DNA from: Bacillota bacterium
GTDB taxonomy: Bacteria > Bacillota > Clostridia > Oscillospirales > Feifaniaceae
Reading direction: 5' to 3'
DNA: 44,126 nt
NCBI GenBank assembly: GCA_030705925.1
Contig: JAUZPM010000011.1
Span: forward strand, 1 to 44,126
The position numbers and the translations under genes are program-made. The notes below the pieces were generated by a model. It searched no databases. It was not told the DNA's origin and saw only the letters and a program-made list of their open reading frames with translations. Of the stretch, positions 9,954 to 12,719 are shown piece after piece (the first letter of the stretch is position 1; each line of letters opens with the position of its first letter).

Positions 9954-11142
9954 ATATATCTTTCGTTTATGCGCTTTGCTATTAGTCCTTTCTTTTTTAT
10001 CAGTGACGTCTTATGCACAGTCTCAATATACTATTGAGAAAGGTGATACATTAGGAGGTATAGCGAAAAAGTTCGGGATTAAAGTTCAGGATATTAAAAA
10101 TGCAAACGGGATTCAAAATGACAGTATTACTGCCGGCAAAATTCTGATCATACCAGATCCGGGAAGTACACCTACACAGGCACCAAGTGGTCAGCCGACA
10201 GGAGAGCAGGGCATTACCGCAAGCGCTAATATTAATGTTGAACCAGAGTCAGAGTCACTTGAGGATATTTCGATTGATTTTCGTAATACCGATATAAGAG
10301 ATATACTAAATGTAATTTCGAATTTCTCCAATAAAAGAATTTTGTACATAGGTCAGCCTCAGAAAATTAGTATAACCGCCTCTGTTGTTTCTTATATAAA
10401 GGCATTAAATTTAATTACAGAAAAGGCGAATAATCTTTCCTATTTGGTTGACAATGATGTCGTTATTGTTGGCCCCAAGGACAGGCTTCAAAACACATTT
10501 ATTTATGAAGAGTTAGCTACAAAACTAAAACTTTCGAACTTAAATGCTCAGCAGTTAATCGAGGTTACTGATTCGCTTGGAATCGAGACAAGAAGTGTTA
10601 AGGTTAACAAAAAAGATGCGCATATTTTACTTATAGAAGCTACACCTAGAAATATAGCATATGCAATGCTTGTTTCCAGGATGATCGATAAGAAAGAATA
10701 CTTCAGTAAAGATGATAAAGGAAATTCTGTTTTAAATAAAGTTGAACTTAGTTTTAAAAATATTAATGCAAATGACTTTGAGGCAGTATTACAAAAATTA
10801 AATATTAAGGCAAGTATAGTGACAAAACCTGATGATCTGTCTTATGCAATGGCAGTAGGCAGCAAAGATACTATTACTGATGTTTCAAACATTTTTCAGA
10901 ATCTTGAAACAACAAAAAATGATTCAGCTGAGTCAATGCTTGAGGTTAGTAAATACAAGCCGGAAAATATAAATGCAAAAGCTGCATATGATGCTGTATC
11001 AGCGAATACTTTCGGGGCGCATGTTATTCTTCAGTCGGGGACATCCCCTTCGGAATTATATATTGTGGGTACCCAGGATCAATGTCAAAATTGCATAGAT
11101 GCATTAAAAGAGGCTGATATTGCAAGTACACCAAAATCATAA
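9943..11142 (+). CDS. Secreted LysM protein with secretin-type N-domains
   Basis: A 399-residue exported protein. A hydrophobic signal sequence ending near SYAQSQ has no lipobox. It is followed by one LysM domain (about residues 28-72: YTIEKGDTLGGIAKKFGI...GKILIIP), which binds peptidoglycan. After a Pro/Gln-rich linker come an STN/secretin N0-like segment (IDFRNTDIRDILNVIS...KISI, about 105-165) and N1-like repeats (ELSFKNINANDFEAVLQKL; LSYAMAVGSKDTITDVSNIFQNLE). There is no beta-barrel secretin channel at the C-terminus. ATG 9943 is preferred over 9940 because AGGAGG (9931-9936) is then 6 bases away. It overlaps the PilP-like gene, so the two are probably a functional pair. A duplicated, MITE-split terminator follows. 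Confidence 0.7.
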   Translation: MRNKYIFRLCALLLVLSFLSVTSYAQSQYTIEKGDTLGGIAKKFGIKVQDIKNANGIQNDSITAGKILIIPDPGSTPTQAPSGQPTGEQGITASANINVEPESESLEDISIDFRNTDIRDILNVISNFSNKRILYIGQPQKISITASVVSYIKALNLITEKANNLSYLVDNDVVIVGPKDRLQNTFIYEELATKLKLSNLNAQQLIEVTDSLGIETRSVKVNKKDAHILLIEATPRNIAYAMLVSRMIDKKEYFSKDDKGNSVLNKVELSFKNINANDFEAVLQKLNIKASIVTKPDDLSYAMAVGSKDTITDVSNIFQNLETTKNDSAESMLEVSKYKPENINAKAAYDAVSANTFGAHVILQSGTSPSELYIVGTQDQCQNCIDALKEADIASTPKS

Positions 11143-11163
11143 ATTTTCAATATATTATAGGAG

Positions 11164-11183
11164 GAGCCTGAATTATCAGGCTT
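11164..11183 (+). repeat. Left copy of 20-bp flanking duplication (terminator hairpin)
   Basis: GAGCCTGAATTATCAGGCTT occurs here and again at 11392-11411, directly abutting both ends of the 208-bp element. Each copy holds the AGCCTGA/TCAGGCT stem. This left copy has lost its T tract to the insertion. Confidence 0.85.
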
Positions 11184-11391
11184 CAGCTTGTCGAAAAACT
11201 ATGTTTTCGGCAAGCTGGCAGACATTGAAAAAGGACAAGCAGACGAAGAACAGGCGCTCGTCGCTGTATGCAGATACAGCAGGGCGCCTGTTCTGAAGAA
11301 AGCAAAAGCGCCCCGGTACGGGGACGCTTGAGCCATTCTTATTACTTATACGTAATCGCTTTTGCGGTGCGCGTACTTTTTCGACAGTCTG
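11184..11391. mobile_element. 208-bp MITE-like element with imperfect terminal inverted repeats
   Basis: The ends are imperfect inverted repeats: CAGCTTGTCGAAAAACTA on the left and the complement of CAGACTGTCGAAAAAGTA on the right (15 of 19 positions agree). Flanks are 20-bp direct repeats. No ORF of note is inside. The interior is full of hairpins: left-end stem 11184-11217, an 11-bp plus 7-bp stem 11247-11294, and AAGCG-CCCCG/CGGGG-CGCTT 11306-11329. AGCAAAAGCG (11301-11310) can also pair with 11357-11366. It is non-autonomous, so a transposase elsewhere must be assumed. Long duplications that include a hairpin recall elements targeting terminators (some IS1182-type elements). That link is inference. 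Confidence 0.75.
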
Positions 11392-11417
11392 GAGCCTGAA
11401 TTATCAGGCTTTTTTTC
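11392..11417 (+). terminator. Intrinsic terminator, right copy of the duplicated hairpin
   Basis: AGCCTGA-ATTA-TCAGGCT (11393-11410) followed by seven T's. It is the functional terminator of the 9477-11142 unit, now about 250 bases from the stop codon because of the element inserted beside its duplicate (11164-11183). Confidence 0.85.
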
Positions 11418-11531: not shown

Positions 11532-12719
11532 ATGAAGAAAAATCTATTAGTATTAACAGCACTAGTACTGGCACTCTCCCTTTTAGCAGGTTGCGCTTCA
11601 GGTGCGGCTTCAAAAGGAACTGACACTAATGCTAACAACAGTGCAAATACATCTAAAGCAATAAGCCAGGTTATGGTGGGAATTCTTGCTCCACTGACTG
11701 GAAACGTTGCAATTTATGGTACAGCGGCTAAAAACGGGGCTGTCCTGGCTTTTGATGAGATTAATAAGAATGGCGGCATAAACGGCGTACAGATTAAATA
11801 TGACGTCCTTGATGAAAAGGGTGACGCCACAGAAGCAGTAAACGCTTATAATAAACTTGTAAGTGAAAAGATGGATGTTCTTCTTGGCGATGTAACAAGC
11901 AAGCCGACTATTGCAGTTGCAGATAAAGCAGCTACCGACAGAATGCCTATGGTTACAGCAACAGCAACTGCTCCTGATGTAACTACATATGGCGACAATA
12001 TTTTCCGCGCATGCTTTATCGATCCTTTCCAGGGAAAAGTTATGGCAACATTTGCATCTGATAATCTTAAAGCTAAAAAAGTTGCTATAGTTTATAATGT
12101 ATCTGATGACTATTCTTCCGGCGCTGCTGCATCATTTAAATCAACAGCAGAATCAAAAGGCATGCAAGTTGTTGCATACGAAGGTTATGGCAACGACGAT
12201 AAAGATTTTAAGACACAGTTAACAAAAGTTCAGCAGTCTGGTGCAGACGCTTTATTTGTTCCTGATTATTATAATAGAGTCGCTTTAATTGGCGCACAAG
12301 CAAGAAGCGTTGGATTTGACAAGCCTCTCCTTGGTACAGATGGTTGGGACGGCGTTTTAAAAGTTCTTGATAAAGACGGTGCAAAAGCATTAGACAACTG
12401 CTATTTCAGCAATCATTACTTTAGTAAAGATACTGATCAAAAAGTTGTAAAATTCAACGAAGCTTATCAGGCAAAGTACAATGAAGCTGCAAATTCATTT
12501 GCTGCTCTTGGTTATGATGCTGCATACATAATAGCTAATGCAATTAAAACCGCTGGTACTACAGATAAAGAAGCTGTTATTAAAGCCCTTAAGAGCACTA
12601 GTTATGACGGCGTCACCGGCACTATTAAATATGGTAATAACGGTGATCCTATTAAAAATGTTACGGTTATAAAGATTCTGAATGACGACTACGTTCTTGA
12701 GACCAAAGTAAGCGCGTAA
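11532..12719 (+). CDS. livJ: Branched-chain amino acid ABC transporter, substrate-binding lipoprotein
   Basis: A 395-residue lipoprotein. The signal peptide ends in the lipobox LLAGC, so Cys is lipidated and the protein is tethered outside the membrane. The body is the periplasmic-binding type I (Leu/Ile/Val-binding) fold: VGILAPLTGNVAIYG, VKYDVLDEKGD-like and VLLGDVTSKPT strands, then LGTDGWDG and LGYDAAYIIANAI. It delivers branched-chain amino acids, or possibly another amino acid or amide, to LivHM. GGGGAGGAAAA lies before the ATG. Three hairpins separate it from livH, which fits higher expression of the binding protein than of the membrane parts. Confidence 0.93.
   Translation: MKKNLLVLTALVLALSLLAGCASGAASKGTDTNANNSANTSKAISQVMVGILAPLTGNVAIYGTAAKNGAVLAFDEINKNGGINGVQIKYDVLDEKGDATEAVNAYNKLVSEKMDVLLGDVTSKPTIAVADKAATDRMPMVTATATAPDVTTYGDNIFRACFIDPFQGKVMATFASDNLKAKKVAIVYNVSDDYSSGAAASFKSTAESKGMQVVAYEGYGNDDKDFKTQLTKVQQSGADALFVPDYYNRVALIGAQARSVGFDKPLLGTDGWDGVLKVLDKDGAKALDNCYFSNHYFSKDTDQKVVKFNEAYQAKYNEAANSFAALGYDAAYIIANAIKTAGTTDKEAVIKALKSTSYDGVTGTIKYGNNGDPIKNVTVIKILNDDYVLETKVSA

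Follow-up and report, generated by a model that had tools for sequence, protein, structure and literature searches.

A putative IS1182-type miniature element of Clostridia that duplicates whole terminator hairpins and carries a conserved structured RNA

Introduction

For the IS1182 family of insertion sequences (IS), ISfinder gives long and variable direct repeats, so that target duplication may in itself be known to specialists. Group IIC introns, too, insert beside terminator hairpins and carry structured RNA; they are not known to make a target duplication, and possess ribozyme domains and a reverse transcriptase. Within the IS1182 family, the staphylococcal elements IS1272 and TnSha1 target stem-loops, including terminators, without any preference for primary sequence, and delete or replace the target stem-loop without duplicating it (PMC4923244, PMC5678879). 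Duplication of a whole stem-loop was drawn by Wan et al. 2017 as a hypothetical 'pathway b', and that paper cites a review according to which some IS1182 members target palindromes.

The locus described here lies in a window of 44,126 nt, which is the whole stretch of DNA that was analysed (contig JAUZPM010000011.1 of a Bacillota bacterium from the class Clostridia). A sequence-only reading had recognized in it a MITE-like, ORF-less element of 208 bp inserted between 20-bp copies of an intrinsic terminator hairpin, and had suggested that such an element seeks terminator hairpins, keeps its target working after insertion and may act at mRNA 3' ends.

Results

Structure of the element at the window locus

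The direct repeats that duplicate the hairpin are identical (GGAGCCTGAATTATCAGGCTT, 11163-11183 and 11391-11411, with a start-to-start distance of 228) and, given one ambiguous base per junction, were read as two 20-nt copies enclosing an element of 208 nt, CAGCTT...AGTCTG (CAG...CTG; Table 1). Each 20-nt copy folds as the hairpin AGCCTGA-atta-TCAGGCT. A T run follows only the right copy, from position 11410 on, and the terminator scan of the + strand scored this copy, and not the left one, as a terminator. No ORF of at least 60 aa was found inside the element, and the original description of a gene-less insert between exact hairpin repeats, with the T tract kept by the right copy only, holds as it stood. 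The imperfect inverted ends of the element are TCAGCTTGTCGAAAAA and TTTTTCGACAGTCTG; since the end sequence forms a palindrome already within the left end, this is not a simple two-ended MITE. The element is located between two genes of the + strand, one ending at 11142 and the other starting at 11532, and lacks about 57 nt of a variable part that is present in other copies of the same genome. Its RNA fold has an energy of -127.5 kcal/mol (z -10.5); this z value, the copy number and the hairpins at the element boundaries (see below) place the arrangement far outside chance expectation.

Table 1. Features of the hairpin-flanked element, in positions of the window.
Feature	Position	Strand	Evidence
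Left copy of the duplicated terminator hairpin, no T tract	11164..11183	+	Exact direct repeat; homologous left copies at other loci
Putative mobile element (MITE), 208 nt	11184..11391	+	23 loci in the source genome; ends common to 40/394 order genomes
P0, left terminal hairpin, palindrome of the end sequence	11184..11217	+	Fold; helix 1 of the class-wide alignment
P1 5' strand CAGACATTGAAAAAGG, inner copy of the end sequence	11219..11234	+	Pairs with 11376-11391 in the fold; helices 2-3
Match of covariance model R1 (conserved RNA core)	11237..11306	+	74.6 bits, E 1.4e-17; window copy outside the training set
P2 hairpin with conserved internal loop, core motif 11259-11283	11247..11294	+	Fold; covariation
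P4 5' strand GCAAAAGCG, long-range helix	11302..11310	+	Complementary to 11357-11365; helix 7 of the class-wide alignment, 7/7 pairs compensated
P3-position hairpin CCCCGGTACGGGG	11311..11323	+	Fold
P4 3' strand CGCTTTTGC	11357..11365	+	Complementary to 11302-11310
Right end / P1 3' strand CTTTTTCGACAGTCTG	11376..11391	+	Common to IS1182-family ends
Right copy of the terminator hairpin, then T tract to about 11417	11392..11411	+	Exact direct repeat; terminator scan

Copies, target preference and empty sites

The source genome (2.25 Mb in 115 contigs) contains 23 full or partial loci of the element, the nearest being 97% identical, so that the absence of further copies, which would have refuted the initial proposal, is clearly ruled out. 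Nearly all right ends directly adjoin a hairpin, which differs from copy to copy and in most cases has a T run, and copies with an intact left end have a homologous hairpin on the left as well; in older copies the loop has changed between the two hairpins, with the stem kept, and copies truncated at the left are devoid of the left hairpin. One copy (L066) has the opposite relation to the T run, and at another (L075) the flanking hairpins are unlike each other. At the start of contig 105 (L045), two elements appear to stand in tandem, a right end lying against the next inner end.

None of the seven other genomes of the source family carries a copy, and the source genus is represented by a single genome. 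At the level of the order, related elements occur in other families: the right-end 16-mer TTTTTCGACAGTCTGA was found exactly in 40 of 394 genomes, in up to 39 copies each, and its reversed control gave a single match. A hairpin (counted at a score of at least 13) starts at the junction in 144 of 162 distinct ends, versus 36 of 2033 control positions (1.8%). Where the repeat is clear (64 loci), its length rises with that of the hairpin (Spearman 0.93) and is most often hairpin length plus one, the duplications ranging from 17 to 37 nt; MITEs carrying the RNA core (see below) across the class likewise have exact whole-hairpin repeats, for example of 24-33 bp. The proposed seeking of terminator hairpins with target duplication is thus supported by many independent copies, each with a different hairpin. 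A bias in the orientation of elements relative to the T tract was looked for and not supported.

Unrelated MITE bodies without the RNA core, having the same ends and hairpin duplication, were noted at L263-L267 (genome G251), L146-L149 (G109), L257-L261 (G099), L118 and L140. Contig 24 of genome G152 (L159) harbors a 50-bp near-perfect end-to-end palindrome of IS ends beside a hairpin; this element is minimal, with hardly any interior.

Empty sites were sought with the joined flanks of elements from genus g337 (family f76, a different family from that of the source genome), which were searched in sister species. For locus L304 of genome G737, the counterpart in the related genome G686 is flanked by the same pair of genes, is 67% identical across the junction and has a single hairpin without the element. 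For locus L307 of G737, the right-hand gene is preceded in both G670 and G686 by a single hairpin and no element, only that side being alignable. The comparison with an empty site, as suggested by the sequence-only reading, was therefore achieved in relatives that have the same RNA-carrying elements, and not at the window locus itself, for which no sister strain was available. Another orthologous site is occupied in two species (L315 and L355) at entirely different hairpins, each exactly duplicated, and these are best read, on sequence evidence alone, as independent insertions. Taken with the many copies and with the transposase described below, the empty sites in relatives bear out the MITE-like mobility first proposed.

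IS1182-family transposases with the same ends

Several right ends of the elements run into a transposase gene. The best of these transposases, P0001, located beside an identical 16-bp end, matches the NCBIfam IS1182 model (NF033551) at 405.6 bits, above the cut-off of 270, and contains the Pfam domains DDE_Tnp_1_6 and DUF772; four relatives with hairpin duplications also exceed the NF033551 cut-off. The right end of one complete IS (L192) is identical to that of the MITE, and the hairpins on the two sides of this IS differ. A transposase sharing the ends, for which a search had been recommended, is thereby identified. The scan of named genomes yielded 45 relatives. Among 25 IS copies with usable flanks, a long direct repeat is present in 19 and absent in six, and in 18 of the 25 a complete hairpin is duplicated exactly or almost exactly (19-40 bp), directly against the CAG..CTG ends. 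Such hairpin-duplicating IS1182 relatives were found in Lachnospiraceae, other Clostridia, Sporosarcina, Lederbergia and Bacillus.

An intact autonomous IS1182 partner was not found in the source genome, where the family is represented only by a decayed C-terminal fragment whose right end is related and adjoins a terminator, and the complete genome G109 gave no match to PF13751, although it carries such MITEs; the active partner is therefore often missing. A partner in the same genome is not a strict requirement, because loss of partners is common and IS present in many copies assemble poorly in genomes of this kind. Other properties of an IS1182-family MITE are present, namely terminal inverted repeats that match those of an IS1182 element, the lack of an encoded transposase, small size, multiple copies, and the same kind of target and duplication as in the IS (whole hairpins). 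The decayed IS1182-type element on contig 13 of the source genome (L166, about 1310-1812) has its right end against a terminator hairpin, next to a gene which we take to be pyruvate-kinase-like.

Conserved RNA core

Element bodies from several families of the order have in common a P2 hairpin with a fixed internal loop and covariation support, and the covariance model of this core also matches the window copy (Table 1). It detects the core in 43 of 391 class genomes, belonging to about 30 genera; with respect to occurrence outside the class, the source genome was the sole match in a phylum-wide sample of 398 genomes. The full-length class-wide alignment comprises eight helices, with paired cells at 95.6% (78.7% after shuffling), changes on both sides in 46 of 71 pairs (24.8 after shuffling), and a covariation score of 0.462 (0.152 after shuffling and at most 0.099 in slid controls); in the long-range helix P4 every pair is compensated. 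Of the two strands, the better fold belongs to the one whose 3' side bears the conserved right end (sense -79 versus antisense -54 kcal/mol); this strand also gave 51 G.U versus 11 A.C cells in a strand test, the structure having been chosen on that strand.

The core is a conserved structured RNA with P0, P1, P2 (with its fixed internal loop), P3 and the long-range P4, and its function is unknown. Its fold is under selection, with the best support on one strand. As the core motif served to choose the sequences, and the structure derives from the same data, the covariation controls lend support but are not conclusive. Neither the IS copies nor the simpler MITEs that share these ends contain the core, and hence it is not needed for mobility. 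In many class-wide copies the P3 hairpin has a recurring UCGAU pentaloop despite its variable stem; this loop is absent from the copies of the source genome.

Searches of Rfam at gathering and permissive thresholds gave no match for the elements searched, so that a known Rfam family was rejected at the gathering score; a group II intron was rejected as well, there being neither an Rfam group II match nor an ORF for a reverse transcriptase. Plasmid and phage collections gave no core match. In IMG/VR, one contig (L363, 641-666) contains the exact core pattern. Neither the end sequences nor the core were found in the literature consulted as a known element, with the reservation that a survey of structured RNAs in the human microbiome (PMC8040213) may hold the motif in its supplements. 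The RNA core, uncatalogued in Rfam, is the most novel part of the element.

Discussion

With its shared ends, many copies, hairpin-length duplications, empty sites in relatives and an IS1182 transposase that has the same ends, the window element is very probably a non-autonomous IS1182-type MITE that targets hairpins by staggered cuts at the hairpin feet and carries a structured RNA whose function is unknown. The TCAGnnTGTCGAAAAA ends of the element would be recognized in trans by an IS1182 DDE transposase, which would pick a terminator hairpin as target; the 3' ends of the element would be joined to both 5' feet of the hairpin or cruciform once it is extruded, and gap filling would copy the whole hairpin to both sides, so that the right copy would keep the T tract and the terminator would survive. 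Mobilisation in trans by the IS1182 transposase is inferred, in the absence of a transposition assay, as is the cutting at the feet of an extruded hairpin.

A strong, conserved and covarying fold, and elements that always adjoin terminators, could also be expected of a resident regulatory or stabilising RNA of host 3'-UTRs, vertically inherited beside terminators and only superficially transposon-like. Such an origin is very unlikely: it is largely refuted by the orthologous sites without the element, and is at odds with the IS-like ends, the exact target duplications, the multiple copies and the patchy distribution (one of eight family genomes). Moreover, the elements lie in sense to the neighbouring gene (13) about as often as in antisense (16), which weakens a host 3'-UTR role, and the suggested role in mRNA 3' ends has found no support so far. 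The paired hairpins might alternatively result from recombination or from an IS1272-like replacement, with the second hairpin evolved later and no target duplication at all, as the replacement or partial deletion of hairpins by IS1272 and TnSha1 (PMC4923244, PMC5678879) and the unlike flanking hairpins at L075 and L192 would allow; this is extremely improbable in view of dozens of exact duplications (19-40 bp), which all differ from one another and match their hairpins in length. Stem-loop replacement of the IS1272 type was rejected, since the hairpin is duplicated and not removed.

An involvement of the RNA core in transposition, with the folded transcript or single strand binding the transposase or shaping the donor, would complement the hairpin-targeting IS1182-type MITE rather than replace it. 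It would fit the better fold of one strand, in both energy and G.U content, as well as the class-wide persistence, high copy number and common ends of the core-bearing elements; yet these ends and targets are also those of other MITEs and of the IS itself, all of which lack the core, and we hold this addition to be rather unlikely. That the core is a new functional RNA family, spread across the class by hairpin-targeting IS1182 MITEs, as their cargo or their cofactor, and active as RNA in mobility or on the host, can be advanced as a tentative hypothesis, possible but short of probable.

These elements provide many natural cases in which the length of the target duplication is set by DNA structure and not by a fixed stagger, and such duplications allow a direct test of the model in which the IS1182 family cleaves at the feet of hairpins. 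They also illustrate a way in which mobile DNA can become numerous in gene-dense genomes with each host terminator left intact, and bring to light a class-wide, strongly covarying RNA not catalogued in Rfam.

Among the systems known to resemble the window element, group IIC introns have in common with it the terminator-hairpin site and the structured RNA, whereas the window element has no Rfam group II match. The pneumococcal BOX, RUP and SPRITE and the Coxiella QMITE are likewise short, multi-copy and gene-less, with stable transcript folds, but none of them is described in PMC10969869 as having a terminator-hairpin duplication or a class-wide covarying RNA core. In the IS1182 family at large (NF033551), complete relatives from the taxa listed above share the CAG..CTG ends and the whole-hairpin duplications; they encode a transposase and lack the RNA core, whereas the window element is gene-less. 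Finally, IS1272 and TnSha1 resemble the group of the window element in their IS1182-family transposase and their stem-loop or terminator targets, but they replace or partly delete the hairpin, whereas the window element group duplicates it as a whole, which corresponds to 'pathway b' of Wan et al. 2017.
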